NCBI RefSeq assembly: GCF_009498455.1
Contig: NZ_CP045644.1
Coordinates: 6,017,001 to 6,081,000, forward strand
Reading direction: 5' to 3'
Source: Variovorax paradoxus
Lineage (GTDB): Bacteria; Pseudomonadota; Gammaproteobacteria; Burkholderiales; Burkholderiaceae_C
DNA length: 64,000 nucleotides
In this document: piece by piece, positions 24,431-38,525 of the stretch
How the letters are laid out: each line of letters begins with the position of its first letter
Numbering within the stretch: the first letter of the stretch is position 1
The notes under the pieces: generated by a model
What the model was told of the DNA's origin: nothing
Databases searched by the model: none
What the model saw: the letters and a program-made list of their open reading frames with translations, nothing else
Position numbers and translations under genes: made by a program

Positions 24431-25599
24431 ACGGCCTCGCTTTCGGCGCCACGCACCGGCCAACCCGCGCTTTTCAGATCGGCCGTGTGTTCGCCCAGGC
24501 GCGGCGCCGCGTGGGCGATGCGCCCCGGTGTCGCGCTGAGCTTGGGCACCACGCCCGGCACCTTGAGCAGCGCACCGTCGGAGCCGCGCGCCTCGACGAT
24601 CATCTCGCGCGCCAGGTACTGCGGATCGGTGGCGATGTCGGCCACCGTGTAGATGCGCCCGACCGGCACGCCCGCCACGTCGAGCACGGCCAGCACATCG
24701 TCGCGGCTGCGCTGCAGGGTCCAGGCCTCGATCGCGGCGTCGATCTCTTCCACGCGCTGCACGCGGCCGTCGTTGTGCGCGAGGCCGGGGTCGTTCTCCA
24801 GGTCGGTGCGGTCGATGGCGCGCATCAGCCGGCGGAAGATGCTGTCGCCGTTGCCAGCCACCAGAACGTAGTGGCCGTCGCTGCAGCGGTAGGCATTGGT
24901 CGGCGCGATGCCGGGCAATGCGCTGCCGGCCCGCTCGCGCACGGCACCGAAAGCGTCGTACTCGGGCAGCAGGCTTTCCATCACGTTGAAGACCGACTCG
25001 TACAGCGCGACGTCGATGAACTGGCCTTCGCCCCCATGCGCCGTGCGGTGGTGCAGCGCCGTGAGCACGCCGATCACGCCATGCAATGCGGCCAGCGTGT
25101 CGCCCAGCGAGACGCCCACGCGCACCGGCACGCGGCCCGGCTCACCGCTGAGGTAGCGCAACCCGCCCATCGATTCGCCGAGCACGCCGAAGCCCGGCTT
25201 GTCGCGGTAGGGGCCGGTCTGCCCGTAACCCGAGATGCGCAGCATGATGAGCCGCGGGTTCAGCGCGTGCAGCTGCTCCCAGCCCAGGCCCCAGCCTTCG
25301 AGCGTGCCGGGCTTGAAGTTCTCGATGAGCACGTCGGCCTCGAGCGCCAGGGCGCGCACGGCCTCCTGCCCTTCGGCGCTGCGCAGATCGAGGCACACCG
25401 AGCGCTTGTTGCGCGACTGCACCTCCCACCACACCGAGGTGCCATCGCGCAGCAGCCGCCACTTGCGCAGCGGGTCGCCGACGCCGGCGGGCTCGACCTT
25501 GATCACGTCGGCGCCGAACTCGGCGAGCGTCTTGCCGGCGAACGGGCCGGCGATGAGCTGGCCGAGCTCCAGCACCTTCAGGCCTTCGAGTGCGTTCAT
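24427..25599 (-). CDS. CaiB/BaiF family III CoA-transferase
   Basis: 390 residues. ALEGLKVLELGQLIAGPFAGKTLAEFGADVIKVE is the classic N-terminus, SRNKRSVCLDLRSAEGQEA follows, and the catalytic Asp region is VLIENFKPGTLEGWGLG with RISGYGQTGPYRDKPGFGV. The ATG at 25599 is preceded by GGAG; a TTG at 25617 is the longer option. It is first in a four-gene cluster with the lyase, the VOC protein and the Bug receptor. Its likely role is to activate an imported acid as CoA ester for the lyase. Confidence 0.9.
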   Translation of the reverse strand: MNALEGLKVLELGQLIAGPFAGKTLAEFGADVIKVEPAGVGDPLRKWRLLRDGTSVWWEVQSRNKRSVCLDLRSAEGQEAVRALALEADVLIENFKPGTLEGWGLGWEQLHALNPRLIMLRISGYGQTGPYRDKPGFGVLGESMGGLRYLSGEPGRVPVRVGVSLGDTLAALHGVIGVLTALHHRTAHGGEGQFIDVALYESVFNVMESLLPEYDAFGAVRERAGSALPGIAPTNAYRCSDGHYVLVAGNGDSIFRRLMRAIDRTDLENDPGLAHNDGRVQRVEEIDAAIEAWTLQRSRDDVLAVLDVAGVPVGRIYTVADIATDPQYLAREMIVEARGSDGALLKVPGVVPKLSATPGRIAHAAPRLGEHTADLKSAGWPVRGAESEAV

Positions 25600-25677
25600 G
25601 TCTGTCTCTGTCTCCAAGTGGGTGGCCCCTACTCTAGAAACAGATCGCGATGAACGGAATTGCTCTGATGGCAGCAG

Positions 25678-25698
25678 GCCTTCGCGAAACGCGAAGGC
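25678..25698. terminator. Hairpin after the membrane-stress operon
   Basis: GCCTTCGCG and CGCGAAGGC are perfect 9-bp arms around AAA, lying 19-39 bp beyond the CorA-like stop. There is no clear U-run in the minus direction, so it may be an mRNA-stabilising 3' hairpin instead of an intrinsic terminator. It separates the operon from the CoA-transferase cluster. Confidence 0.5.
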
Positions 25699-25716
25699 GT
25701 GCCATGCGCCCTGCTG

Positions 25717-26490
25717 CTACTTCTTCTTCAGCGTGGACGCAGGCTTGGCAACCACCGGCGGCGCGGCCGGCGTCTTGACCCAGCCGCGCAGCATCACGCC
25801 CAGGCAGATGCCGGCCGCGAAGATCAGCCAGTACACCCACGACGGCAGGTTCTCCACGCCGCTGTGCAGATTCATGCCGAAGGCCGCGCCGACGGCCATC
25901 AGCGGAAAGGTCAGCGCGGCGATGGTGTTGAGCTTGTGCTGCGCGCGGCTCATGTCGAGGGCCGAGCCCGCCTGCGCTTCGGCGGCGCGTGCGAGCCGGT
26001 AGTCGAGCGACATGCGCGTGTCGGCCAGCAGCAGCTCGAAGCCGCGGGCAATCTCGACCGCCAGGTCGCGCTGGTCGATGAGCATCAGGTCGCCTTTGAC
26101 AGCATCGCGCGCGGCCTGCAGGGTGTCCTGCATGTTCCGCGCGGCGCGGGTGAGCGGGATCAGCGGGCCGAGGACCTGGAACAGGTCTTCCGAGGTCTCG
26201 GCGGCCTGGTGGCGGATCTCGAAGGTGCTGAACGCCGTGCGGTAGCTGTCGAGCAGCTTGGCGAGCGCGCGCTCGCCGGGGTTGTTGCCCTTGTGCAGCC
26301 ACGCGCCGTCGGGCTTGCGCAGGAACACCACGGGCTTGCGCTCGGCGCCGGTGCCCGAGGGCGGCTCGTGCAGGATCACCATCAGGTGCTCCTGCTCATG
26401 GATGATGCGCTGCGCACCGTAGGTGCTGCCGCCCAGCCGCTGCTGCATGGCAGCGGGCAGTTCCCAGTCGTAGTCGATTCGTCTTGCCAT
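25717..26490 (-). CDS. CorA-like divalent-cation transporter family protein
   Basis: 257 residues. The C-terminal third has the CorA pattern: an Arg-rich helix, TIAALTFPLMAVGAAFGMNLHSGVENLPSW with a GMN motif, and a second membrane helix (VYWLIFAAGICLGVML). The N-terminal soluble part is much shorter than in CorA (about 320 residues) and lacks the usual beta domain, so cation transport is uncertain. The ATG overlaps the PLD-protein stop by 1 nt. It is the last gene of the PspA/flotillin operon and may be a membrane anchor or channel of the system. Confidence 0.78.
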   Translation of the reverse strand: MARRIDYDWELPAAMQQRLGGSTYGAQRIIHEQEHLMVILHEPPSGTGAERKPVVFLRKPDGAWLHKGNNPGERALAKLLDSYRTAFSTFEIRHQAAETSEDLFQVLGPLIPLTRAARNMQDTLQAARDAVKGDLMLIDQRDLAVEIARGFELLLADTRMSLDYRLARAAEAQAGSALDMSRAQHKLNTIAALTFPLMAVGAAFGMNLHSGVENLPSWVYWLIFAAGICLGVMLRGWVKTPAAPPVVAKPASTLKKK

Positions 26491-27188
26491 CAGGGGGCCT
26501 GCAGTTCTTTCCACAAGGTGTCGAATTCGTCCGCGAAGCGGCGCACCAGCGACGGGTCGTTGCTCAGCACCAGGTTCTCTTCGTTGTACTCGCAGGCGCT
26601 GCGGGTCCAGTTGTAGCTGCCGTTGAGCAGCCGCGCGCCGTCGAAGAGCGCGAACTTGTGGTGCATGTGGGCCTCGGTGCGGTCCACCGCCACCGCAATG
26701 CCGGCCGCGCGCAGCTGGCCGACGTCGCTGCCGCGGTCGAACTCCTTGTCGTTGTCGGTGACGAAGCGCACCGTCACGCCGCGCCGGTGCGCGGCCAGCA
26801 CCTCGGCGGTGATGCGGTCGTCCGAGAGCGTGAACACGCACAGGTCGACCGCACGCTTGGCCGTTCGCAGTTGCTCGTTGATCGCCTGCAGGCAGGCGGT
26901 GCCGGGGCTGAAGTAGGCCTGGGAGCGCACCGTGACGCTGTCGGGCGACCGGCCGGTGTCGATCGCGCGCACCACGCCTTCGAGCCACTTGAGCAGCGAC
27001 AGCTGCTCGGGGTCGGCGGTGCGCGAGCGCACGAGGTCGAAGGCGCGGTTGCGCAACTGGCGCAGGCCGTCTTCGGGCGGCGAGGCTTCCCGCAGGGTGT
27101 GGACCAGCACGCGGCGCTCGTCGTCGCTCAGGCGCGCGTCAGCCATCGTGGCGTCGAGCTGGGCCAGCAGTTCGGGCAATGCGGACAT
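26490..27188 (-). CDS. Phospholipase-D-like protein with one HKD motif
   Basis: 232 residues. The PLD domain covers about residues 90-225. The HKD motif is His176-x-Lys178-x4-Asp183 followed by LLNGSYNWT. With a single HKD, activity would need a dimer, as in Nuc and mitochondrial PLD. The first 85 residues are helical with no known domain. No signal peptide is present, so it acts in the cytosol or at the inner membrane face, on phospholipid or nucleic acid. It overlaps the upstream ATPase stop and the downstream CorA-like start by 1 nt each. Confidence 0.86.
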   Translation of the reverse strand: MSALPELLAQLDATMADARLSDDERRVLVHTLREASPPEDGLRQLRNRAFDLVRSRTADPEQLSLLKWLEGVVRAIDTGRSPDSVTVRSQAYFSPGTACLQAINEQLRTAKRAVDLCVFTLSDDRITAEVLAAHRRGVTVRFVTDNDKEFDRGSDVGQLRAAGIAVAVDRTEAHMHHKFALFDGARLLNGSYNWTRSACEYNEENLVLSNDPSLVRRFADEFDTLWKELQAP

Positions 27189-30100
27189 CAGTGATCCTTG
27201 TCGGCTTTGGGTGAAGCTGGAGGTGCAGGCGCGCGCTTGGGTACGGCCCGCGAGGCCTGCACCTCGGCGGCGAGGCGCTCCATGTCCTGCTTGATCGAGC
27301 GGTCGAGTTCGAGCCGGCGTTCGGTGGCCGTCACCAGCGGCAGGATCAGTTCGCGGTAGGTCACGGCGATCTGCAGCATGGCGTCGGCCAGGCGCTGGCC
27401 TTCGCTCGGGCCTTCAACCGGCGGCGTGGGCTCGGGCTTGAGTGAATCGACCGCGCGCGCCACGTCGAGCATGCTGCTCGCGATGCGCTGGCTGCCGTCG
27501 ACGTCGGCGCCGCCGAGCTTGCGCTGGCGCACGAACTCGTCGCAGATGGCCGTCCAGCGCGCGCTTTCCTCGGGCGTGGGGCTGCCGAGCAGTTGGGCCA
27601 GGCGCAACAGGTTTTCTTCGGCGCCGGTGGTCAGCGTCTGGGCTTCGCCGCGGTAGTGGTCGCGCAGCAGCGCGTCGAGTTCATCGTCGCGCATCAGCGG
27701 CGTGATCTTGCCCGCGAGCTTGGTCATGTTGCGGTAGCTGCCCTGCAGCTTGAACGGCGGCGCGGTGCGGTAGTTCTCCTGCTGCGCGGCCGACGCGATG
27801 TAGGCCAGGTTGACCTTCAGCAGCAGGTCGCGCGCACGGAACAGCCGCTGCAGCAGCGCCTTGATCTCTTCCAGCTCGACCGAGCTGTAGGCGTGCGACA
27901 GCGCGCTGCTCGGCACGTCGTGGCCCTGCGCCATCTTCACCAGCAGCTGCACGTCCTTCGGATCGCGCGAGGCCAGGGGCATCAGCGTGGGGTTCGAAGT
28001 CAGGCTGTTCTCGATGTACGAGAGCGCGAACGCCGCTTCGCGGCCCGAGAGCACGTCGCCCAGGTTGTAGATGTCGGCGCGGTTGGCCAGCATGTCGGGG
28101 ATCTTGAACACGTCGCCCGACTCGGTGTACGGGTTGCCCGCCATCACGATCGCGAAGCGCTTGCCGCGCATGTCGTAGCTGCGCGGCTCGCCGTTCCACA
28201 CGCCCTCGATGCGGCGCGTGCCGTCGGCCAGCGCAATGAACTTCTGCAAAAACTCGGGGCTGGTGTGCTGGATGTCGTCCAGGTACAGCATCACGTTGCT
28301 GCCCATCGCCAGGCCCAGGTTGAGCTTCTCCAGCTCCTGCCGCGCGGCGCTGTTGGGCGCGTTGACCGGGTCGATGGCCGTGACGCCATGGCCCAGCGCC
28401 GGGCAGTTGATGCGCACGAAGATCAGGCCGAGGCGGTCGGCCACGTACTCCATCAGCGTCGTCTTGCCGTAGCCGGGCGGCGAGATCAGCAGCAGCAGGC
28501 CCATGCGGTCGGTGCGGCTGCCCTCGCCTGCCGAACCGATCTGCTTGGCAAGGTTGTCGCCGATGATCGGCAGATACAGCTCGTCGATCAGCTGGTTGCG
28601 CACGAAGGTCGACAGCGGCTTGGCCTGGAACTGGCCGAGCTTGAGCCGTGCCTTCTCGCGCTCGAGCAGCTCGTGGCGCAGGCTGTGCAGCGCCTCGTAG
28701 CCCGGCACCGCATGCAGGGTATGGAACAGGAAGCGGCGCCAGAAGTCGTTGAGGTTCAGCGTGAGGCGGCCCTCGACCACGCGCGGGTGCTCCCCGCGCA
28801 GGCCTTCGACCGTGCGGTCGAGTGCCGCATTCACGCGGGTGCGCTGCAGCGGCATCGCCAGCACGCTGGCCGCGTCGTCGATCCAGTCGATCGATTGCGG
28901 TGCCTGGTGCGTCGCGTAGGCGCGCACCCAGTCGCGCGCCAGGCGCCAGCGCTCGGCCGGCGGTGCGGCATCGAGGTCGTGCTGCCACGCGTCGCGTCGG
29001 CCGCCGCGCTCCAGCTCGCGCATCAATGCGGCCGCCAGGTCTTCGCCCGCGCCGGACACGGCCCAGGCGTCGCCGCCATGTTCGCTGGCCAGTTCGCGCA
29101 CGAGGTACGCGGCGGCCTGGTCGCACAGCGTGGTCACACGGCCGTCGTGCGCATCGCGCGTTTCATCGCTCGCGGTGTCGGCCAGCGGCAGCAGATCGGG
29201 CACCACGTCGCGGGCGAAGTGGTTCAGGGCACGTGCGATGTCGGCTTCGAGCTGTTCCAGCGCATCGCGCCGACCGAACAGCGCCAGCATCTGCATCGAA
29301 GCGCGCGCGCGGCGCAGCATCGATTCGCGGTGCGCAATGAGGTGGCCGTGCTGCCAGTAGAGCAAGGCCAGCGCGCGCTCGGTCGGGCCCCAGGCCAGCA
29401 GACCGGCCTGGTCCTGCATGCCGACGAGCGCGCCCAGCAGGCGCATCGCGTCGTCGTCGTGGATGCCCTTCTGGTAGCCCTCCTGATACCGCGCCGCGGC
29501 AAAGCGGCGGACCATGTCGAGCAGCTGCGGATGCAGTGGATCTTCGGTCAGCAGCGTGAGCACCTCGGCCCAGCTGCGCTCGGTCTTGCCGTCGAGCAAG
29601 GCCTCCAGCAGGCGGCCCGCCAGGTACTCGGCGCGCGACAGCTCGGGCGTTTCGGACACCAGCGACTGGTTCCAGTAGCGCTGCAGCGGCAGCAGCCGCG
29701 GCTCATCGACCGGGCTCTGGTAGTCGGTGCCCGTGACCTGGTAGGCCATGCCCTCGTCGCGGGCCACGAGCGTCAGGTCGACCGGCTGGCGGTGCACGGT
29801 GAAGGCATGGCGGCCGAGGCGCAGCGTGTCACCGCCTTCGCTCACCAGCTCGCGCTTGTCGCGGATGGAGCGCAGTGCCTGGTCGCGCGCGGTCTTCAGG
29901 CGCGTGTCGAGCTCGTCGGCCTGCACCGCGGCGCCCAGCGTGCGCAGGTCGGCGATCAGAGTGTGCAGCTTGCCGATCATCGGATCGGCCGCGAAGTAGC
30001 TGTGGACCTGCGTCAGGTCGCCGAACTGCGCAATGCGGCGCGGAATGCCGTCGAGGATGCGCCCCGCCGCATCGACCACGCCCTGCGCGCGGCGCTGGCG

Positions 30101-32455
30101 CGCTTCCACCAGGCTCTGGCGGCGCGCGGACAGCGCTTCGTAGACGGTCTCGCGCTTCTCGGCGATGTCGGCCAGAAAGCCTTCCTGCTCGGCAAAGCGG
30201 CCTTCGATCTCTTCGAGCTGGGCCAGCAGGCGCGTCAGCGCGTCGTCGCACTTCTCGGGCGTGTCGGCGAATTCCAGCGCGTTCTCGACCGCCTGGCTGA
30301 AGAGTTTGAACTGCGCACCGAATTCGGCACGCGCTTCGGTCGCGCCCAGCGACTTGCGCCGCATGCGCGCGTCGGCTCGCATGCGGTTGATGTCGGCATA
30401 GATGAGCGAGATGCGGTCGAGGATCGACGTGCGGATCACCGCGTCGCCGCCTGGCAGGCTGCCGAGCTGCTCGGTCAGCAGGTCGAGCCCGGCCGCCTGC
30501 TCATCGAGCGTGGCGAGCATCTGCCCGAGCGCGGGCGACGTGGCGAGGTTGGGCAGTTCGAGCGCGAGCTTGTCCAGTGCCTGGCGCTGGCCGTTGAAGG
30601 CGGTGTCGGCCGCCAGGAACTGCATGGCGCGCTCGCCGATGCGTTGCTGTTCGGCTTCGAGCGCGGCGTCCATGGCGGCGATGCGCGGCAGGTCGGCGTA
30701 GCGCAGCTCCTTGAGCATCTGCAGCGCGCCGCGCCGTTCGCGCAGCCGGCCCAGCGCCTTCACGAAATCGTCGGGGGCGCGCCAGAGCGTGCTGGCGATG
30801 TCGACCATCAGCGCGTGCTGCTCGTCTTCCGCACGGGCCAGCGCGCGCGCGGTTTCGCGGCGGATGGTGTCGACCTTTTCGAACTCGGCCAGCGTGCTGC
30901 GCGCCACCTCGGCGATGCTGCGCAGCTCGCCCATGAGGCCGGCGGCCTCGGGCGCGTCGAGCCAGAAGTAGGCGTCGCTCACGCGCGTGCACTGGCGGAT
31001 CAGGTCGTCGTAGGCCGCGCGCGTGGGCGCCTGCTCGCGCACCGCGCGGGCGATGCCCATGAGGTCGCTCACGCCGCGCACCAGTTCGGCATTGCCGATC
31101 TTGCCGAAGAAGCCGGTGGCGGGCGGCTGCGCGCTCACGTGCTCTTCGCTGGCGAAGGGCGTCTGCCACAGCTGCATCGGGTGCACGCGCGTGGGCTCGC
31201 CGTTGTCACCGTTGAACACCAGGATGCGGCCGTCGGCAAAGCGCGCGTAGCCGTTGGCGATGATCGGCGTGGCGAGCTTCTTGTCGATCAGGTTGTAGTT
31301 GAAGAGCGCGTAGCGCCCCGGCTTGCGGTCGTAGAACACATAGGCCACGTCCTCGCCGTTGGGCGAGCGCAGCATGCGCTTGAAGCGCAGGCTCTCGACC
31401 ACCTCGGCGGGCAGGTCGAAGCGCTTGTGCTCGCCCGACTGCAGGTAGTAGCCGCCGGGAAAGATGATGCCGTGGTCTTCGGGCAGCTGCACGCAGGAGC
31501 CGCCGATGGCGTCGATGCGCTCGACCTGCTGCGTGCGGATGTTGAACACCAGATAGCGCGTGGTCTGCTCGCGGTAGGGCTTCACGCGCAGCAATATCAG
31601 CATGCCGAGTTTGGCCCAGGCGATCTCGGCGTCGGTGAGCGACTGGCTCTTGTCTTCCACCGGCTCGCTGTAGATGCCCAGGCCGGTCTCGGTGTTGTTC
31701 TCGATCTTGATCGTGAGGTCGCCGCCCAGCGTCTCGACGAACACGGTGTCGAGCACGTTCACGTGCGGGTGCTTGCCGCCCACGTGGTCTTCGCGCGTGG
31801 CCACGGTCCATTCGAAGTCGTGGCTGGCGGGCAGCGCGATGTCGCGCTCGCCGCGGTTGTCGACGTAGTGGATGCTGCCGTCGCGCTCGATGGCCCAGCG
31901 GAACACGCGCACGTCGCTCAGTTGCTGGCCGATCTGGAACGAGGCGAGCAGCTTGTCCTGCGTGACGCGCAGCTGCAGCAGCGTGGCCTGCTTGTAGTAG
32001 GCGTAGAGCTCGCGGAAGTCGGAGACGAAGCGCGTGTCTTCCAGGAACGAGCCGGCCAGCGGCACGGGCTGCAGCTCGTCGTTTTCGGTGGCGGCTTCGC
32101 CCGGCGCTGCGAGCCGGTACAGGCCGAACACGTCGCCCACGGCCGTTTCCTTGCGCAGGCCGATGAAGACGTTGTAGCCGAACAGCAGCAGGTCGCCGAT
32201 GCGCACGATGTCGCGCGCCACGGCATTGTTCTCGGTGCGCGCGCGGGTGCGCAAAATCAGCGCCTGGTCGGAGCGACCGAACTCGGCGAGCCGCTGCTCG
32301 TTGAGCGCCTGCGTCTTCTTGAGCAGGCCTTCGCCCTGGGTTTCGAGTCGCTTCTTCAGCAGGTCGTAGCTGCCGCTGCCGGAGACCAGCGCTTCGGTGG
32401 CGTCGATGGGAGCCTGGGCGCCGGGCGGCGCGCCGGTGTCGTCAGTGGGTTGCAT
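27188..32455 (-). CDS. Giant AAA ATPase of the PspA/flotillin operon (DNA-repair-ATPase type)
   Basis: 1755 residues. The N-terminal 450 residues are beta-rich, possibly propeller-like (WAIERDGSIHYVDNRGERD, YARFADGRILVFNGDNGEP). Residues 480-1000 are mostly coiled coil, and 1000-1290 helical. The AAA module is C-terminal: Walker A SPPGYGKTT with Lys1331, Walker B VMLYLDDIQ with Asp1393-Asp1394, and sensor-1-like IVMAGNPYTES. The tail ends in a charged Pro/Lys stretch. Proteins like this are annotated as DNA repair ATPase in databases, but I know of no proof for that role. Company with PspA and flotillin favours membrane or protein remodelling. No membrane helix is evident. Confidence 0.88.
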   Translation of the reverse strand: MQPTDDTGAPPGAQAPIDATEALVSGSGSYDLLKKRLETQGEGLLKKTQALNEQRLAEFGRSDQALILRTRARTENNAVARDIVRIGDLLLFGYNVFIGLRKETAVGDVFGLYRLAAPGEAATENDELQPVPLAGSFLEDTRFVSDFRELYAYYKQATLLQLRVTQDKLLASFQIGQQLSDVRVFRWAIERDGSIHYVDNRGERDIALPASHDFEWTVATREDHVGGKHPHVNVLDTVFVETLGGDLTIKIENNTETGLGIYSEPVEDKSQSLTDAEIAWAKLGMLILLRVKPYREQTTRYLVFNIRTQQVERIDAIGGSCVQLPEDHGIIFPGGYYLQSGEHKRFDLPAEVVESLRFKRMLRSPNGEDVAYVFYDRKPGRYALFNYNLIDKKLATPIIANGYARFADGRILVFNGDNGEPTRVHPMQLWQTPFASEEHVSAQPPATGFFGKIGNAELVRGVSDLMGIARAVREQAPTRAAYDDLIRQCTRVSDAYFWLDAPEAAGLMGELRSIAEVARSTLAEFEKVDTIRRETARALARAEDEQHALMVDIASTLWRAPDDFVKALGRLRERRGALQMLKELRYADLPRIAAMDAALEAEQQRIGERAMQFLAADTAFNGQRQALDKLALELPNLATSPALGQMLATLDEQAAGLDLLTEQLGSLPGGDAVIRTSILDRISLIYADINRMRADARMRRKSLGATEARAEFGAQFKLFSQAVENALEFADTPEKCDDALTRLLAQLEEIEGRFAEQEGFLADIAEKRETVYEALSARRQSLVEARQRRAQGVVDAAGRILDGIPRRIAQFGDLTQVHSYFAADPMIGKLHTLIADLRTLGAAVQADELDTRLKTARDQALRSIRDKRELVSEGGDTLRLGRHAFTVHRQPVDLTLVARDEGMAYQVTGTDYQSPVDEPRLLPLQRYWNQSLVSETPELSRAEYLAGRLLEALLDGKTERSWAEVLTLLTEDPLHPQLLDMVRRFAAARYQEGYQKGIHDDDAMRLLGALVGMQDQAGLLAWGPTERALALLYWQHGHLIAHRESMLRRARASMQMLALFGRRDALEQLEADIARALNHFARDVVPDLLPLADTASDETRDAHDGRVTTLCDQAAAYLVRELASEHGGDAWAVSGAGEDLAAALMRELERGGRRDAWQHDLDAAPPAERWRLARDWVRAYATHQAPQSIDWIDDAASVLAMPLQRTRVNAALDRTVEGLRGEHPRVVEGRLTLNLNDFWRRFLFHTLHAVPGYEALHSLRHELLEREKARLKLGQFQAKPLSTFVRNQLIDELYLPIIGDNLAKQIGSAGEGSRTDRMGLLLLISPPGYGKTTLMEYVADRLGLIFVRINCPALGHGVTAIDPVNAPNSAARQELEKLNLGLAMGSNVMLYLDDIQHTSPEFLQKFIALADGTRRIEGVWNGEPRSYDMRGKRFAIVMAGNPYTESGDVFKIPDMLANRADIYNLGDVLSGREAAFALSYIENSLTSNPTLMPLASRDPKDVQLLVKMAQGHDVPSSALSHAYSSVELEEIKALLQRLFRARDLLLKVNLAYIASAAQQENYRTAPPFKLQGSYRNMTKLAGKITPLMRDDELDALLRDHYRGEAQTLTTGAEENLLRLAQLLGSPTPEESARWTAICDEFVRQRKLGGADVDGSQRIASSMLDVARAVDSLKPEPTPPVEGPSEGQRLADAMLQIAVTYRELILPLVTATERRLELDRSIKQDMERLAAEVQASRAVPKRAPAPPASPKADKDH

Positions 32456-32467
32456 GGATCGGCGCGG

Positions 32468-33013
32468 TCAGTCCGCGCGCAGCAGTGCGAGCAATTCGTC
32501 GCGGTGAGGCTGGGTGTCGAGCCAGGTGCGGATGCGGTCCAGCTCGTCGATGCAGTCGTCGCCGTAGCGGCGGCGCAGCGCGGCCAAGCGCGCCTCGCGC
32601 ACCTCCTCGGTCTGCAGGCGGCGCTGCCAGCCGTCGGACAGCAGCTCGTCGAGCCGGCCGGCCAGGCCGCGGCTCACGAGGGCGCGCCATTCGCCCTGGT
32701 CGAACCAGAGGTTCTGGCAGGCCACGCAGCGGTCGATGCGGAAGTCGGGCCCCGCACTCACGCGCAGGCGCTGCATCAGCCGTTCGCACTCGGGGCAGTG
32801 ACGCACAGCGGCGAGGTCGAACACCTCGATCACTTCGTCGTCGACCTCATGCGGCACGCGCTTCGGGTCGGCGGCTTTCCAGCTGCGCCAGTCGTCCATG
32901 TCCATCACCATGCCATGGCAGTCGCCGCACTGCACGCCCAGCAGCGCTTCGGCCAGCGCCACGGGCTGCATCGCCGCGCGCCCGGCGCAGCTGCACTTCA
33001 GATTCGGATTCAC
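32468..33013 (-). CDS. TFIIB-type zinc-ribbon protein
   Basis: 181 residues from a GTG that overlaps the flotillin stop as GTGA. Three Cys groups are visible: KCSCAG at the start, VQCGDCHG, and CPECERLM with RCVACQNLWFDQGEW, the last being the zf-TFIIB signature. The rest is helical and charged. The flotillin frame ends inside its start and the ATPase starts 12 bp after it, so it is firmly in the operon. It may be an adaptor for the ATPase. No enzymatic motif was seen. Confidence 0.85.
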   Translation of the reverse strand: MNPNLKCSCAGRAAMQPVALAEALLGVQCGDCHGMVMDMDDWRSWKAADPKRVPHEVDDEVIEVFDLAAVRHCPECERLMQRLRVSAGPDFRIDRCVACQNLWFDQGEWRALVSRGLAGRLDELLSDGWQRRLQTEEVREARLAALRRRYGDDCIDELDRIRTWLDTQPHRDELLALLRAD

Positions 33014-35196
33014 TGCGCGTTTCCGTTCAAGGGGCGGAAGGTGGAGATCAGGTTCTGCAGCGCCGACTTCTGGCTCTCGGTGCCGTCGTTGGCGATCTTG
33101 TTCATCAGCGAGGCGACGCTGAGGTTCTGGATTTCGCCCGACGAGTTGCCCAGCGCGCCGACGATGTCGCGCAGGTCCTTCACCACGTCGCGCTCACCCG
33201 AGAGCTGCTCCTTGAAGGCGACCTGCACCGCCTGGCTCTTGGAGATGACGCCGTCGATGCCCTTGCCCACCGAGAGCGAGCGCACGAAGCTGTCGAAGTA
33301 GTCGCCCGAGCCGCCCACGATGTCGATCTTGGCGTTGGCGAGCGCGGTGCCGAGCACGTCGGCCTGTTCCTTGGCAATGGACGTTTGCGCGTCGATGCCC
33401 TTCATGGTTTCGATGTGCGACTTTTCCAGGCGCATGCGGAACTCTTCGTGGTCGCGCGTCTCGGGGCTCATGGACTTCATGGCCTCGAACTTCTCGTGCA
33501 GGCCCTTCGCCTCGGCGTTGAAGCGCGCTTCGATCACCTGCGCATCGGCCTGGCCCGACTTGAGCGTGGCTTCGGCATCGGCCGTGCGCACGTTGACGTC
33601 GGCGAGGCCGAGCTTTTCCTTGCCCGAAGCTTCGGCGTCGAACTTGGCGCGCATGCCGGCGGCTTCGGCCTGTGAGCGCGCTTCGATGACCTGCGCGTCG
33701 GCCTGGCCGGCCTTGAGGATCGCGTCGGCATCGGCCTGGCGCACATGCACGTCGGCCAGGCCCAGCTTTTCCTTGCCCGAGGCTTCGGCCTCGAAGGTGG
33801 CCAGGCGCGCCTGCGCGGTGGCGATTTCGACCTTGGCAGCCGCGAGGCCCGGTGCGGCGGAGATGGCTTCCATGCCCTCGGCTTCGCGCTTCTTCGATTC
33901 CGCGTCGCGCTCGGCCACCTTCAGCTTGGCATCGGCCAGCGTGAGTTCTTCGGCCGCCTTGTGGCGTGCGCGCTTTTCTTGCGTTTCGGCCGCCTTCACG
34001 TCGATCACCATCTTCTCGTCGGCCTGGCCCTCGGCCATGATCACGACCGACTTCTTGGTGCGCTCGGCCTCGGCCACCACGCGCAGTTCCTTGATGGCTT
34101 CTTCCTGCTCGGCCACGGTGCGCTCGACCACGATGCGCTCGCGGATCACGTCGGCAATGGCCTTCTTCTGCACTTCGACGGCCTTGTCCTTCTCGATGCG
34201 CTGCAGGGTCACTTCCTTTTCGCGATCGACGATCTCGAGGTCGCGGGCACGCGTGACCTTTTCTTCCTCGACGGCCACCGCGCGCTTGCGGTTGTTCTCG
34301 GCCACTTCCTTTTCGCGCTGCACGTTCTCCTGCTGCACGGCCACGGTCTGCTCCGACAGCAGGCGCGCGGTTTCGGACTTGGTGCGCTCTTCGGACTGGA
34401 TCTTGGAAGTTTCGGCTTCTTCGCGGGCACGCACGCTGGCAATTTCGCGGTGCTGGCGCGAGGTGGCGTCGGCCTGCTGGCGCTCGAGTTCGAGCAGCGC
34501 TTCTTGCGTCTCGACGTTCTTCTTCTTGATCTGCATTTCCTCGTTGCGGCGCAGTTCGTTGGTGCGCACATGCTCGACCGCCGTCAGCTCGGTGATCTTC
34601 TTGATGCCCTGCGCATCGAGGATGTTGTTGGCGTCGAGCTCCGACAGCGGGGTCTGCTCGAGGTAGTCGATGGCGGCGTCTTCGAGCACGTAACCCGAGA
34701 GGTCGTTGCCGATCTGGCTGATGATCTGGTCACGGAAGCCGTCGCGCGCCTGGTACAGGTCGACGAAGTCCATCGACTTGCCGACCGTTTTCAGTGCTTC
34801 GGAGAACTTGGCCGAGAACAGCTCTTCGAGCGTCTCGTGATTCGATGCGCGCGCACAGCCGATGCCCTGTGCCACCTTCAACACGTCGTCGGCGGTCTTG
34901 TTGACGCGCACGAAGAACTTCACCTTGATGTCCGCGCGGATGTTGTCGCGGCAGATCAGGCCTTCGTTGCCGGAGCGGTCGATCTCGATGGTCTTGACCG
35001 AGATGTCCATCAGCTCGGCCTTGTGGATGATCGGGTAGACCATGCGGCCGGTGAAGGTCACCTCGGGCTCGGCGCGCAGCGTGTTCACGATGAGTGCGTG
35101 GCCCTGTTCGATCTTTCGATAGAACTTGGCGAACATCGCGAACAGGCCGAGGATGACCACGGCCAATATGACCACGGCAAAGATGATGGGCTCCAT
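33010..35196 (-). CDS. Flotillin-family protein, YqiK-like
   Basis: 728 residues. One N-terminal membrane segment (IIFAVVILAVVILGLFAMFA) is followed by an SPFH/Band 7 domain (about 28-200, starting YRKIEQGHALIVNTL). A long coiled coil rich in Glu, Lys and Ala (about 210-470) comes next, then two tandem 51-residue repeats (468-569) and a C-terminal domain (RSLSVGKGIDGVISK). Flotillins oligomerise on the inner membrane and organise microdomains; YqiK is the E. coli counterpart. The partner OB-fold gene (YqiJ type) is 69 bp upstream. The length exceeds typical YqiK (about 550) mainly by the duplicated coil. Confidence 0.92.
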   Translation of the reverse strand: MEPIIFAVVILAVVILGLFAMFAKFYRKIEQGHALIVNTLRAEPEVTFTGRMVYPIIHKAELMDISVKTIEIDRSGNEGLICRDNIRADIKVKFFVRVNKTADDVLKVAQGIGCARASNHETLEELFSAKFSEALKTVGKSMDFVDLYQARDGFRDQIISQIGNDLSGYVLEDAAIDYLEQTPLSELDANNILDAQGIKKITELTAVEHVRTNELRRNEEMQIKKKNVETQEALLELERQQADATSRQHREIASVRAREEAETSKIQSEERTKSETARLLSEQTVAVQQENVQREKEVAENNRKRAVAVEEEKVTRARDLEIVDREKEVTLQRIEKDKAVEVQKKAIADVIRERIVVERTVAEQEEAIKELRVVAEAERTKKSVVIMAEGQADEKMVIDVKAAETQEKRARHKAAEELTLADAKLKVAERDAESKKREAEGMEAISAAPGLAAAKVEIATAQARLATFEAEASGKEKLGLADVHVRQADADAILKAGQADAQVIEARSQAEAAGMRAKFDAEASGKEKLGLADVNVRTADAEATLKSGQADAQVIEARFNAEAKGLHEKFEAMKSMSPETRDHEEFRMRLEKSHIETMKGIDAQTSIAKEQADVLGTALANAKIDIVGGSGDYFDSFVRSLSVGKGIDGVISKSQAVQVAFKEQLSGERDVVKDLRDIVGALGNSSGEIQNLSVASLMNKIANDGTESQKSALQNLISTFRPLNGNAQ
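33490..33795 (-). repeat. Two tandem 153-bp units inside the flotillin gene
   Basis: The units are 33643-33795 and 33490-33642. Each encodes 51 residues with the shared core AEASGKEKLGLADV and GQADAQVIEAR. The two copies differ at scattered positions, so the duplication is not brand new. It lengthens the coiled-coil stalk by one exact unit. Confidence 0.9.
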
Positions 35197-35265
35197 TTTT
35201 TCTCCAGATGCTTTTTAAGAGCGAGCTAACGAACTTGGGTGAGGGGTGCGCGCGGTCAGAACTTC

Positions 35266-35910
35266 TCAGACGATGTCTTCGTGCGCCGCGATGAGGTAGC
35301 GCGCGGCCACCTCGTCGTATTCGAGGATGAGCGCGTGCGAGCCGCGCTTGAGGGCGTTGGGCGTGGGCGCCCAGACGCGGATGTTGAGGCTGGCGCCGCG
35401 GCGCGCCACTTCGGCGCGGCCGTCTTTCTCGTTCACCACGCCGGTGACGACGCGGCAGACCTGGCCCACCAGCGCCGCATTGCTCACGGCCGTGTGGCTC
35501 ACGAAGAGGCCCTTGAGCGGGCGAATCGCCACCGCCGTTACCGGAATGGCAAGCGCCGCGCTGACCACCAGCAGCACCGTGCCGGCCAGCAGCTTGAGCA
35601 CCATCGTCGGCACCAGCGGCAGCAGCCACTCGCCGCCCAGGCACGAGAGCGTCCAGGCCACCAGTACCAGCAGGCTCACGGCCACCGAGAACGGCACGCC
35701 GTTCAGGCCGAAGGCGACCACGTAGCTCGCGATCTGGCCCATGTCGCTGGTGTCGCCATCGGCATGCGTCTGCAGGTCGACGTCGATCCCGCTGCTCTCG
35801 AAGTCGACCATGCCGACCACCGCGAGCACCCAATAGATCACCACGACGCCGAGCAGCACCGTGTAGATCGCGGTGGGGTACCCCGTCACCGCTCCCATGA
35901 AATCGCCCAT
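35266..35910 (-). CDS. OB-fold membrane protein, YqiJ-like
   Basis: 214 residues. Hydrophobic helices are at about 10-35 (AIYTVLLGVVVIYWVLAVVGMV), 70-95 and 100-125. The C-terminal soluble part (about 140-210: ALVGQVCRVVTGVVNEKDGRAEV) reads as the NfeD/YqiJ-type OB fold that partners flotillins. It precedes the flotillin gene by 69 bp. Together they should form a membrane microdomain complex. Confidence 0.86.
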   Translation of the reverse strand: MGDFMGAVTGYPTAIYTVLLGVVVIYWVLAVVGMVDFESSGIDVDLQTHADGDTSDMGQIASYVVAFGLNGVPFSVAVSLLVLVAWTLSCLGGEWLLPLVPTMVLKLLAGTVLLVVSAALAIPVTAVAIRPLKGLFVSHTAVSNAALVGQVCRVVTGVVNEKDGRAEVARRGASLNIRVWAPTPNALKRGSHALILEYDEVAARYLIAAHEDIV

Positions 35911-35952
35911 TGATCCTCCCGCGTGCGGGTTGGTTGTTGTTCTCTTTTCTTC

Positions 35953-36318
35953 TTACCTGCCGCCCGGCTTTTTTGTGCCGGTGTTCTTCTTGTTCGCCTT
36001 GCCCGCAAAGGCAATCAGTTCGCGCGTGGCCTTCTCCTTGATGGCCAGGCGGTCGTCGGGTGCCAGACCATAACGCGCCGCCAGAAATTCGTAGTCGGCC
36101 GTGTTCAGCGACACCGTGAGGCGCGGCCGCTTCGGCTTCGAGGTGGTCGCCAGGCCCAGCACCTGCCGGATCTGGTCGGGCGTGGACACGTGCTGCTCGA
36201 AGGCCGCGGTGCGCACGGCCTCGAGCACGGCCTCTTCCACGTCGAAGGCCACCTGGACCGCGCGGATCGCCTCGTCCGAGCCTTGCCAGCGAACCGGCTT
36301 GACCCGCACCATCGTCAC
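35953..36318 (-). CDS. Small unknown protein of the PspA operon
   Basis: 121 residues, not recognised. The N-terminal half is acidic/helical (AIRAVQVAFDVEEAVLEAVRTAAFEQ), then comes PRLTVSLNTADYEFLAARYGLAPDDRLAIKEKATREL, a ribbon-helix-helix-like stretch, and a Lys/Gly-rich tail. The GTG at 36318 overlaps the PspA stop as GTGA; ATG at 36312 is an alternative start. A small DNA-binding or PspA-associated regulator is possible from the helix pattern and position. Confidence 0.7.
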   Translation of the reverse strand: MTMVRVKPVRWQGSDEAIRAVQVAFDVEEAVLEAVRTAAFEQHVSTPDQIRQVLGLATTSKPKRPRLTVSLNTADYEFLAARYGLAPDDRLAIKEKATRELIAFAGKANKKNTGTKKPGGR

Positions 36319-37037
36319 TCCGCAGCCGGTTCGGACGGCCCAGACGGCTTGGCCTGCCGGGCGCGGATGCGCTCCATCACCTTGCCGGTGCGGTCCGCGT
36401 CGTTGCCGATGCCCGCAGCGGCCAGTTTCTTTTCGAGCGCGCTATGGCCGAACTCGTCTTCGAGCTGCTGGCCCGCCGTCATGCGATCGGACAGGTCTTC
36501 GTGGCGCGAGCGGATGCGCTCCAGCGACTCGCGCGCGCTGGCCAGGCGCGAGCCGCCGCTGCCGATGTTCTCGGAAATCGACTGCGTGGCGCGGTAGACG
36601 CTCTCGGTGGTCTTGGCGATGCCGATCTCGCGCTCGTGCTCGCGGATGCGCGCCTCGGCCGACTTGATCAGGTCCTTGAGCCGCGACACCTGCAGCGCAT
36701 ACGAGGCGTGGGCCTTGGCCTGCTCCTCGAGTTCCTGCTCGAGCGTGCCGACCTTGGACGCCACGTCGAGCGCCAGGCCTTCCTGGGTCTTGTTGAGCGC
36801 TTCGAGCGCCAGGCCTTCGTAGCGCGTGACCTCGCCCTTCAGGCGTTCGATTTCGCGGGCCGACTGCATCTCCTTGGCCATGACGCCGGTGAGGTCGCCC
36901 TTGGCCTTTTCGATGCTGTGCTTGGCGTCGATGATTTCCTGCTCGTAGATGCGCGTGGCATTGCTGTCGATCACGCTCTCGCCGATTTCGCGGGCGCTGC
37001 CGCGCAGCAAGGTGACCAGCTTCTTGATGACTGTCAT
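36315..37037 (-). CDS. pspA: PspA/IM30 (ESCRT-III-like) membrane-stress protein
   Basis: 240 residues. The start VIKKLVTLLRGSAREIGESVIDSNATRIYEQEI is the amphipathic helix plus the conserved PspA opening, and the rest is a long helical hairpin of Glu/Lys/Arg heptads. PspA polymerises on damaged inner membrane and blocks proton leakage. Genes typical of a classical psp operon (pspB, pspC, pspF) are absent. Instead DUF2170, flotillin and a large ATPase surround it, the YjfJ-like arrangement. Confidence 0.93.
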   Translation of the reverse strand: MTVIKKLVTLLRGSAREIGESVIDSNATRIYEQEIIDAKHSIEKAKGDLTGVMAKEMQSAREIERLKGEVTRYEGLALEALNKTQEGLALDVASKVGTLEQELEEQAKAHASYALQVSRLKDLIKSAEARIREHEREIGIAKTTESVYRATQSISENIGSGGSRLASARESLERIRSRHEDLSDRMTAGQQLEDEFGHSALEKKLAAAGIGNDADRTGKVMERIRARQAKPSGPSEPAAE

Positions 37038-37049
37038 GGTGATCTCCGC

Positions 37050-37466
37050 TTAGTTCAGGAATTCGGACAAGGCGTCCAGGGCATCGAGCGCGTTGTCGCT
37101 GAGCACGGCCACTTCGCGTGCGATGTCTTCCACGCTCGCGTTGCGCCCGAGCGCCCCGGTGAGCACGTAGCGGCCACCGACGCGCCCGAAGGACGACAGC
37201 GGCACCGACGGGTTGAGGTCGAGCAGCGATTCGAGCAACTCGGTGCGCCGCTCGGGTTTCACTTCTTCCTCGGTCCAGAGGTAGCAGATGCAGATGATCT
37301 GCATGTCGGAACTGGTGACGAAGATCGGCAGCTCATCGCGCCCTTCGATGCTCACCTGGACCACGGGCGTGCTGCCCGGAATGGGCTGCAGCTGCACGGG
37401 CAGCCCGCCCATCGCCGCGCCGGCCAGCGCATCGAGGCCCTTGAGTTGATCGAGCAGTGATTGCAT
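37050..37466 (-). CDS. DUF2170 (YjfI-like) protein
   Basis: 138 residues. DUF2170 features are ITSSDMQIICICYLWTEEEVKPERRTELLESLL and NPSVPLSSFGRVGGRYVLTGAL, followed by an acidic helix (VAVLSDNALDALDALSEFLN). The fold is thought to resemble secretion-chaperone-like domains. It is first in the operon with an excellent ribosome binding site (AAAGGAGAGGT) and 12 bp before pspA. In E. coli yjfI likewise precedes the pspA-like yjfJ. Confidence 0.88.
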   Translation of the reverse strand: MQSLLDQLKGLDALAGAAMGGLPVQLQPIPGSTPVVQVSIEGRDELPIFVTSSDMQIICICYLWTEEEVKPERRTELLESLLDLNPSVPLSSFGRVGGRYVLTGALGRNASVEDIAREVAVLSDNALDALDALSEFLN

Positions 37467-37519
37467 ACCTCTCCTTTGGGTTGTCTACCGTTGGAAGCGC
37501 GCGATGCTTCGCTGGATTC

Positions 37520-37548
37520 ACTATAGGTGCAGCGACATAACATGTCAA
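37520..37548 (-). promoter_or_regulatory. Consensus-like sigma-70 promoter of the PspA/flotillin operon
   Basis: TTGACA (37543-37548) and TATAGT (37520-37525) on the minus strand are separated by exactly 17 bp. The start of transcription should be near 37513, giving a leader of roughly 47 nt before DUF2170. No GG-N10-GC sigma-54 element was seen, unlike classical psp operons. Confidence 0.8.
37534..37546. promoter_or_regulatory. Inverted repeat over the -35 box
   Basis: GACAT-AAC-ATGTC is a perfect 5-3-5 dyad overlapping the -35 hexamer and spacer. A factor bound here would block the strong promoter. The divergent LysR gene at 37608 or the small protein at 35953 are candidate binders. Confidence 0.5.
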
Positions 37549-37607
37549 AAATTCTTTTAGCCCATGCGCATGACTTTCGACACTGGCGCGCTCTCTAGAA
37601 TCCGCCG

Positions 37608-38525
37608 ATGCCCCGCACCATCAACCCCGCGCGTGTCGATTTCGTGACGCTTCGCCTCTTCTGCGCAGTGGCCCAGTCGGGCAGCATCACCAAGGGCGCG
37701 GAGGCGTGCCACCTCGCGCTCTCGGCGGCGAGCCGGCGCTTGTCCGACTTCGAAGCCGCCACCGGCTCGAAGCTGCTCGAACGCAGCGCGCAGGGCATCG
37801 CGCTCACGCCCGCCGGGCATGTCGCGATGCAGCATGCGATGCGGCTCTTCCAGGGCTTCGAGCAGTTCAGCAACGAGCTGGGCGACTACGCCAGCGGCGT
37901 GCGCGGTCATGTGCGGCTGTGGGCCAACATGTCGGCGCTGACGGAGTTCCTGCCGACCACGCTGGCCGCCTTCCTCGGGCAGCATCCCGACATCCGCGTC
38001 GAGGTCGAGGAGCAGCTGAGCGGCGACATCGTGCGCGCGCTGGTCGACGGCCTTGCCGACGTCGGCGTGTTCGCCGAGAACACGCCTGCCTACGGCCTGG
38101 ACGTCGCGCCCTTCCAGACCGACGAGCTCGTGGTGTTGTGCGCCAAAGCGCACCCGCTGGCACGCCTGCGCGTGAAGAAGATCGATTTCAAGACCTGCCT
38201 GGCGCACGAGTTCGTGGGGCTGAACCGCAGCAGCTCGCTGCTCGAGCTGACCTCGCGCGCGGCCGAGCAGGCCGGCATTCCGATGCGCCTGCGCGTGCAG
38301 GTGCGCAGCTTCGATGCGATGTGCCACATGATCGCGGCCAACCTCGGCATCGGCGTGGTGCCGCTGGCCGCCTGCAAGGCGCAGGTGGCCGCGCTCGACC
38401 TGAAGGTGGTGCACCTGAAGGACACGTGGGCCACGCGCCGCCTGCTGATGGCGACGAAGACGGGCGCGGCGCTGTCGCCGGCGGCGCAACTGCTGGTACG
38501 GCAGCTGCTCGCTTCGTCGAACTGA
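37608..38525 (+). CDS. LysR-family transcriptional regulator
   Basis: 305 residues. The wHTH is at about 10-70 (VDFVTLRLFCAVAQSGSITKGAEACHLALSAASRRLSDFEAATG). The effector domain contains VRLWANMSALTEFLPTTLAAFLGQHPDI and GIGVVPLAACKAQV. It is divergent from the PspA operon with 141 bp between starts, so it could regulate that operon, although LysR control of psp-type genes would be unusual. It is also convergent with the DUF779 gene. Confidence 0.88.
   Translation: MPRTINPARVDFVTLRLFCAVAQSGSITKGAEACHLALSAASRRLSDFEAATGSKLLERSAQGIALTPAGHVAMQHAMRLFQGFEQFSNELGDYASGVRGHVRLWANMSALTEFLPTTLAAFLGQHPDIRVEVEEQLSGDIVRALVDGLADVGVFAENTPAYGLDVAPFQTDELVVLCAKAHPLARLRVKKIDFKTCLAHEFVGLNRSSSLLELTSRAAEQAGIPMRLRVQVRSFDAMCHMIAANLGIGVVPLAACKAQVAALDLKVVHLKDTWATRRLLMATKTGAALSPAAQLLVRQLLASSN

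Follow-up and report, generated by a model that had tools for sequence, protein, structure and literature searches.

A movable Variovorax operon joining PspA, flotillin, and a DUF3686 ATPase, and a candidate repressor of PSP and SPFH genes

A 64,000-nucleotide stretch of Variovorax paradoxus DNA (hereafter the window), taken from a 7.29-Mb single-contig genome whose nearest relatives are Variovorax, carries nine minus-strand genes, running from 37466 to 25717, that read in sequence as one unit behind one promoter. They encode a DUF2170 protein, PspA, a protein of 121 amino acids (aa), a YqiJ-like protein, a YqiK-like flotillin of the SPFH type, a zinc-ribbon protein, a DUF3686 ATPase, a phospholipase D (PLD)-family protein, and a CorA-like membrane protein. 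We consider it quite probable that a regulon of phage shock protein (PSP) and SPFH genes has the 121-aa protein as its dedicated repressor, acting via TTGACAT-N3-ATGTC on PspA systems, on the DUF3686 ATPase, and on several systems of the SPFH/flotillin type, and that the Variovorax regulon is this one movable operon, with a parts list that resembles mitochondrial inner-membrane quality control. At the level of predicted targets, the wider regulon is shown for one genome only (G139).

PspA and SPFH proteins have mostly been studied as two separate membrane-protection systems. If the proposal is true, some bacteria would run a large ATPase and several SPFH operons together with PspA as one program, and one gene together with one 13-bp site would offer a direct handle on what that program senses.

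The 121-aa gene and its candidate operator

The comparison covers 100 loci containing the ATPase, 20 from one genome set and the best 80 matches of a search. Setting aside 5 duplicates leaves 95 non-redundant loci, and setting aside a further 12 with short flanks leaves the 83 used for gene content. A homologue of the 121-aa gene (u121) is present in 45 of the 100 loci read. The Variovorax sequence upstream of the DUF2170 gene, TTGACATGTTATGTC, is conserved, with one variant observed, and includes GACAT-N3-ATGTC, a palindrome fused with the -35 box; in the 18 listed Variovorax loci with the 121-aa gene, TTGACA is kept in all and TATAGT in nearly all. The single exact palindrome of the window's own genome (G000) lies at this promoter.

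Gene and palindrome occur together. Palindromes were scored in 89 of the 95 loci, the other 6 being left out because their upstream regions were truncated. An exact copy lies no more than 250 bp from the operon's first gene in 40/40 testable loci with the 121-aa gene and in 1/49 without it, and mononucleotide shuffles yielded none. The palindrome was first noticed in the Variovorax loci and in L030, L054, and L058, which are thus not independent of the test; the 40 loci comprise 18 from Variovorax and 22 others, of which 19 had not been seen beforehand, and all 19 have the palindrome. It is likewise found in the one held-out locus with the gene (L134) and in none of the five held-out loci without it. 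At least seven loci have two exact palindromes 15 bp apart, and in Massilia and Duganella (L076, L077, L081, and L082) one lies over the -35 box and another just past the -10 box, a repressor-type layout. In L085, the operator precedes both DUF2170 and YqiJ. In total, we infer, with strong comparative support, that the 121-aa protein would bind GACAT-N3-ATGTC over the -35 box and repress the operon at rest.

Does the palindrome also mark genes beyond the operon? We turned to 13 genomes, namely G365 and 12 drawn evenly across class and phylum. All 7 genomes that carry the 121-aa gene have the palindrome directly before a DUF2170/PspA cluster or a PspA gene standing alone, and none of the 6 that lack it does; in G513, one of the seven, the PspA-like protein behind the palindrome is diverged. 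Of the 33 exact palindromes in the 7 gene-bearing genomes, 17 directly precede PSP/SPFH clusters, 13 fall within open reading frames (ORFs), and 3 lie elsewhere, as assigned by a simple longest-ORF choice that used no annotation. The 6 genomes without the gene hold 10; no PspA match lies beside any of these, and we recognized no PSP/SPFH neighbor by eye.

In G139, there are 10 exact palindromes versus 4 in a backward-pattern control. Three lie within ORFs, and the seven intergenic copies all precede PSP or SPFH genes, namely, a DUF350/spermine-synthase operon, a DUF2170–PspA–DUF4178–u121 cluster (two copies), a PspA–PspC operon, a Band_7 gene, a YqiJ–YqiK–ATPase cluster, and an NfeD–Band_7–Band_7 cluster. 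The single ATPase locus that breaks the rule of gene and palindrome going together, L029, belongs to this genome, and the 121-aa gene lies elsewhere in G139. Palindromes were also seen beside genes of other kinds: just upstream of an rpoH-looking sigma-factor gene at L160:2030 (G553), which raises a possible heat-shock link to the same regulator; near groEL- and cutA-like genes, named by eye, at L159:2324 (G240); and on the 5' edge of an amidase-like ORF in L176 (G365).

Several observations weigh against a dedicated repressor. In G233, the operator on the PspA side lies on a different contig from the 121-aa gene. Among eight further 121-aa loci outside DUF3686 operons, four have an exact palindrome and five a copy with at most one mismatch; L168 and L169, from one genus, have two-mismatch copies only, seen by eye where expected, and L167, in which the 121-aa gene is not beside PspA, has no palindrome. 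The association counts above take loci and genomes without correction for kinship. The ribbon-helix-helix (RHH) reading of the protein itself started as a judgment by eye: a Pfam search gave a FitA-like_RHH match for 2 of 26 family members (best E, 7e-4) and no match for the window's own protein, and an AlphaFold model (pLDDT 75, moderate) has no significant Foldseek match and places a long N-terminal helix where the RHH strand is expected. The copy at L167:4540-4869 (G757), with neither PspA nor palindrome nearby, is followed by two large ORFs, and a second role for the family is possible.

Conservation as one unit

Many of these genes also recur together outside Variovorax, and the gene order is far beyond chance. 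Flotillin is present in 81 of the 83 loci, YqiJ in 80, DUF2170 and PspA in 69 each (always co-present or co-absent), PLD in 47, the zinc ribbon in 39, the 121-aa gene in 38, and the CorA-like gene in 18. The zinc-ribbon gene lies between flotillin and the ATPase in most betaproteobacterial loci that carry it, is divergent and upstream in L027, L029, and L092, and is downstream of the ATPase in L112, L113, and L123; that it shifts position yet stays linked argues for a function.

Beyond the core, there are two further partners. Outside Variovorax, the CorA-like gene is found in Aquabacterium (L053) and in Uliginosibacterium (L058), where it precedes PLD instead of following it. The CorA-like counts (21/100 loci; 18/83 among those used) come from a profile rebuilt on domain envelopes, a first profile (37 loci) having been dropped because out-of-frame extensions into the PLD gene had contaminated it. 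A rhomboid protease (PF01694, E 3e-20 in L088:15214-15759) occurs in L088 and 22 other loci, which are gammaproteobacterial, and sits mostly between the ATPase and PLD.

A fixed site and a patchy distribution

In 28 of 61 Variovorax genomes, LysR and CaiB genes lie on one contig, and the distance between them could be measured (for G280 and G332 the pair is not on one contig, and G280, with a short ATPase frame of 799 aa, was also excluded from the region set). The gap is 110 to 126 bp in the 20 operon-less genomes, apart from one value of 461 bp that stems from a partial LysR match, versus 11,965 to 12,290 bp in the 8 operon-bearing ones. The unit occupies the roughly 115-bp gap of its operon-less relatives, and at this fixed site either the whole of it is found or none. 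The complete nine-gene set is found in 16/83 loci, all of them Variovorax, and five of these (L032, L033, L034, L035, and L037, each from a further genome) lie away from the LysR/CaiB flanks of the window. DUF3686 is patchy at every level sampled: 15 of the 61 Variovorax genomes drawn, 7/274 class genomes, and 8/398 phylum genomes, with our own genome counted in the latter two. We read this pattern as that of a unit that probably moves horizontally.

Flotillin is the steady partner

The initial annotation had tied the ATPase to both PspA and flotillin, and the two halves of that claim fare differently. The flotillin half stands: beyond the 81/83 near relatives, the ATPase adjoins flotillin and YqiJ in 12 of the 13 genomes of the wider sample, and in a plasmid collection a flotillin match lies 66 to 265 bp from the ATPase in 12/12 ATPase records, from Deinococcus, Streptomyces, Nonomuraea, Hymenobacter, Proteus, Pseudomonas, Halomonas, Photobacterium, and Vibrio. 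The PspA half is mixed, in that PspA is linked in 69/83 near relatives and lies within 10 kb of the ATPase in 5 of the 12 evenly drawn genomes (6/13 with G365), while being present somewhere in 13/13. Because of these adjacency counts, we regard the flotillin/YqiJ pair as the steady partner of the ATPase, with PspA linked or supplied in trans.

In the class sample, 60 of 274 genomes have PspA, including 7/7 with DUF3686 and 53/267 without (p = 1.8e-5), an enrichment that suggests a real dependence between ATPase and PspA. On the other side, this p value ignores genome size and kinship, and PspA is unlinked in 7/12 evenly drawn DUF3686 genomes. One of those seven (G500) is near a contig end, and in another, G513, a diverged PspA-like protein sits in the PspA place; it is a strongly diverged coiled-coil protein (L134:12999-14047, E 4e-5) between DUF2170 and u121.

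Layout of the operon and identity of its parts

The positions and family assignments of the nine genes, the promoter, and the candidate operator are collected in Table 1.

Table 1. Genes and regulatory features of the operon, in window coordinates
Feature	Position	Strand	Evidence
DUF2170 protein (YjfI/BacA-type)	37050..37466	-	PF09938 E 1.4e-28; PDB 8q8o 'DUF2170 family protein' E 2.4e-6
PspA/IM30 protein	36315..37037	-	PF04012 E 2.4e-31
121-aa gene (u121), candidate RHH repressor	35953..36318	-	Co-occurs with operator palindrome
YqiJ-like protein, three hydrophobic segments (hydropathy)	35266..35910	-	Adjoins ATPase in 80/83 loci
YqiK-like flotillin/SPFH protein	33010..35196	-	Homologues of 44-49% identity annotated flotillin family or SPFH domain-containing
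Zinc-ribbon protein	32468..33013	-	Zn_ribbon_TFIIB E 1.2e-6
1755-aa ATPase	27188..32455	-	PF12458 E 1e-195; DUF3686 44-497, DUF7902 619-702, AAA+ ~1270-1630, C-terminal helices
Single-HKD PLD-family protein, MitoPLD-like	26490..27188	-	PF13091 (PLDc_2) E 4e-28
CorA-like two-segment membrane protein, GMN motif, short N-terminal part	25717..26490	-	PF01544 E 4e-4, under Pfam cutoff
Sigma-70-type promoter TTGACA-17-TATAGT	37520..37548	-	11/12 consensus positions
Candidate palindromic operator GACAT-N3-ATGTC overlapping -35 box	37534..37546	.	Only exact copy in 7.29-Mb genome

The nine same-strand genes proposed in the initial annotation are all where it had placed them. The eight junctions, in gene order, measure +12, -4, +42, +69, -4, +12, -1, and -1 nucleotides, so that the overlaps number four rather than the five given there, and the remaining four junctions are indeed gaps of 12 to 69 nucleotides. 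Its single consensus-like promoter is likewise borne out: one strong sigma-70-type promoter stands before DUF2170, and the only other promoter-like match in 25500-37700, within the AAA gene, scores 9/12 (0.6 expected in shuffles). In the same interval, no terminator-like match lies on the operon strand, all 12 being on the plus strand, with 8.9 expected over both strands. The genes are inherited as one unit, and a membrane role suits every part identified.

Pfam matches exceed the cutoff for DUF2170, PspA/IM30, the TFIIB-type zinc ribbon, DUF3686, DUF7902, AAA, and PLDc_2; for the PF04012 family, this PspA is the sole Pfam match in G000. In the ATPase, both the AAA+ and the DUF3686 parts are detected, and the putative Walker A, Walker B (DD rather than the usual DE), and sensor 1 motifs, read by eye, are invariant in 93/93 rows. 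The best fold matches of the AAA+ module among solved structures are MoxR-type, CbbQ and NorQ, and the module is predicted to be MoxR-like; the whole ATPase has no PDB relative by sequence. The usual companion of a MoxR protein is a VWA partner; a search limited to Pfam scans of the operon's own genes and of ten flanking proteins found none. Two relatives have interrupted reading frames: in L029:4341-9431 (G139), the ATPase gene has one in-frame TGA and reads as 89-aa and 1583-aa ORFs, and in L078 it is split into two adjacent ORFs of 1459 and 287 aa.

The PLD-family protein has a single catalytic motif, HxK(x)4D...GSxNW, invariant in 16/16 sequences. It is nearest to the mitochondrial cardiolipin hydrolase: profile search favors MitoPLD (E 7.6e-41) over Nuc (3.5e-21), and MitoPLD is its best solved relative, with a gapless 134-residue alignment (E 1.6e-28). 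The CorA-like protein has the GMN motif in 9/9 aligned sequences and, in the window copy, two C-terminal segments that are hydrophobic by hydropathy. Its Pfam score (20.2 bits versus a cutoff of 27) falls short, and for this reason we call it CorA-like, not CorA; apart from one unrelated entry, a PDB sequence search gave only Mrs2 (E 0.42). The flotillin begins with a hydrophobic segment (residues 1-29) and matches Pfam Flot below the cutoff (E 0.005; 17.3 bits versus 27), with no Band_7 Pfam match and no PDB relative by sequence. The YqiJ-like protein has no convincing Pfam, profile, or PDB match; its name comes from the initial annotation and fits the description in the open-access text of Ravi et al. 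(PMC11237479).

Proposed mechanism and alternatives

Envelope maintenance is the best reading of the operon, and envelope repair is likely. On balance, we lean toward a horizontally moving, stress-inducible, PspA–flotillin-type membrane-maintenance unit with the 121-aa protein as its repressor and with the following division of labor. At rest, the 121-aa protein on GACAT-N3-ATGTC over the -35 box would keep the operon repressed, and envelope stress would lift that repression. From what is known of the respective families, DUF2170 may be a chaperone of, or brake on, PspA; PspA would coat damaged inner membrane; and YqiK and YqiJ would build a scaffold there. We posit that the MoxR-type ATPase, with its putative propeller, docks on the flotillin scaffold and assembles or remodels complexes at that place. 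The PLD would edit anionic phospholipid, most likely cardiolipin, and the CorA-like protein, or the rhomboid protease in many gammaproteobacterial versions, may be a lineage-specific membrane effector. A caution on the lipid substrate is that MitoPLD has been reported both as a lipase and as a nuclease.

With which partner does the ATPase work? It could be a chaperone of the MoxR type that matures the flotillin–YqiJ complex or the clients of that complex, with PspA merely protecting the same membrane site, and this we entertain as a genuine if tentative possibility. The MoxR-like fold of the module, the flotillin beside the ATPase in plasmids of nine genera, and the seven evenly drawn genomes with unlinked PspA all fit such a chaperone; the lack of a VWA partner recognized among the nine genes and the enrichment of PspA, with the dependence it suggests, do not. 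The ATPase could instead be an analogue of Vps4, removing PspA polymers from the membrane in an ESCRT-like machine, which we regard as rather doubtful. The open-access text of Ravi et al. (PMC11237479) proposes that PspA, together with AAA+ partners, has ESCRT-like roles, and the presence of PspA, linked or in trans, in every genome of the wider sample is consistent with them; neither Vps4-type nor RuvB chains are among the 50 fold matches (VIA) listed for the ATPase module.

A phage-defense or abortive-infection island, with the PLD as nuclease, the ATPase as sensor, and the membrane proteins as effectors, is very unlikely. A mobile unit of patchy occurrence would suit such an island, and the PLD has a weak likeness to DrmC and DpdK (best PADLOC match, DrmC, E 4.2e-9; NCBIfam DrmC, 39.5 bits versus a cutoff of 133), but it scores far better against MitoPLD. 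The other PADLOC matches of the operon genes are also weak (mainly PLD and coiled-coil), no defense gene is found among the 10 flanking proteins, of which those identified are metabolic or regulatory, and both the grouping of PSP with SPFH genes by the G139 operator and the presence of PspA in 13/13 genomes speak against it. The one strong flank match belongs to a GAF–sigma-54 activator at 40678-42570 of the window, about 3 kb from the operon and beside an aldehyde dehydrogenase gene (PADLOC RtcR_PspF2, 283 bits), which is probably a generic NtrC-type activator. The envelope defense of the initial annotation, if taken in the phage sense, is unsupported. A DNA-repair system, finally, is suggested by the Pfam text for DUF3686 ('ATPase involved in DNA repair') and by RuvB among the Foldseek matches of the ATPase, and is hardly credible given steady partners that are membrane or PspA-type proteins and the absence of RuvB from the listed fold matches just mentioned; if our proposal is true, the label 'DNA repair ATPase' used in databases would come into doubt.

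Comparison with known systems

The combination of genes, first taken to have no described mechanism, has a core that was already described by Ravi et al. in 2024 (PMC11237479), whose open-access text presents a group of DUF2170–PspA, YqiJ, flotillin, and a propeller AAA+ ATPase, sometimes with PLD. The operon resembles the CesT/Tir–PspA–band-7 operon of that account in its adjacent DUF2170–PspA genes (DUF2170 appears in the literature as a CesT/Tir-like chaperone or regulator), and further probable points of likeness are the flotillin with a transmembrane (TM) segment, the YqiJ-type 3TM protein, the PLD of some Proteobacteria, and the AAA+ ATPase, described there with propeller and coiled coil and seen here as AAA+ and DUF3686. 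The main text of the same paper contains no rhomboid, no CorA, and not the word 'operator'; both genes partner versions of the operon here. It does describe an RHH transcription factor as the last gene of a spermidine-synthase operon group. By position, we presume that this gene and the 121-aa gene, here third in the flotillin group rather than at the end of the spermidine-synthase group, belong to the same family. No account of the operator or regulon was found in full-text searches of one open-access library or in passages of the papers named here. Within the literature so covered, what appears to be new is the operator together with a likely regulator and regulon, the partnership with CorA-like and rhomboid proteins, the assignment of the PLD to MitoPLD and of the ATPase module to MoxR, and the empty site.

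The B. subtilis ydj system offers a second likeness. The SPFH protein YdjI is required there for membrane localization of PspA, according to the abstract of PMC8581546, so that the link between SPFH and PspA is shared; the membrane partners, YdjG/H, differ, and no DUF3686 ATPase is named in that abstract or in section 19 of Ravi et al. (PMC11237479). Unlike the MoxR proteins CbbQ and NorQ, our ATPase has its module fused to DUF3686 and long helical parts and has no VWA partner among the nine genes. Like MitoPLD/Zucchini, the PLD has a single HKD domain; unlike them, it has a bacterial N-terminal part of about 95 residues with no hydrophobic anchor by hydropathy. The mitochondrial 'SPY' complex shares an SPFH scaffold, a rhomboid, an AAA protein, and a cardiolipin-type lipase with many gammaproteobacterial versions of the operon. 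We draw this as an analogy of parts and claim no homology; the AAA protein of the SPY complex is a protease.

The closest experimental counterpart is the bacABCDEF operon of P. aeruginosa, which the available text of PMC10948618 describes as six genes on one transcript by reverse transcription-PCR, with a proposed sigma-54 promoter, versus nine genes and a sigma-70-type promoter here. BacA is DUF2170, BacB is PspA, and BacC is a short NfeD-type protein (PMC10948618), and BacD is the flotillin PaFlo3 (PMC13086221, as far as its available text goes); when BacA is lost, the other five Bac proteins rise 6.1- to 13.5-fold (PMC10948618, same text). The Pseudomonas loci sampled here have neither the 121-aa gene nor the operator. 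In L088, a relative, the ATPase and then the rhomboid gene would occupy the bacE and bacF positions, probably so for the rhomboid gene at that of bacF. If true, our proposal would also put P. aeruginosa bacE and bacF in context.

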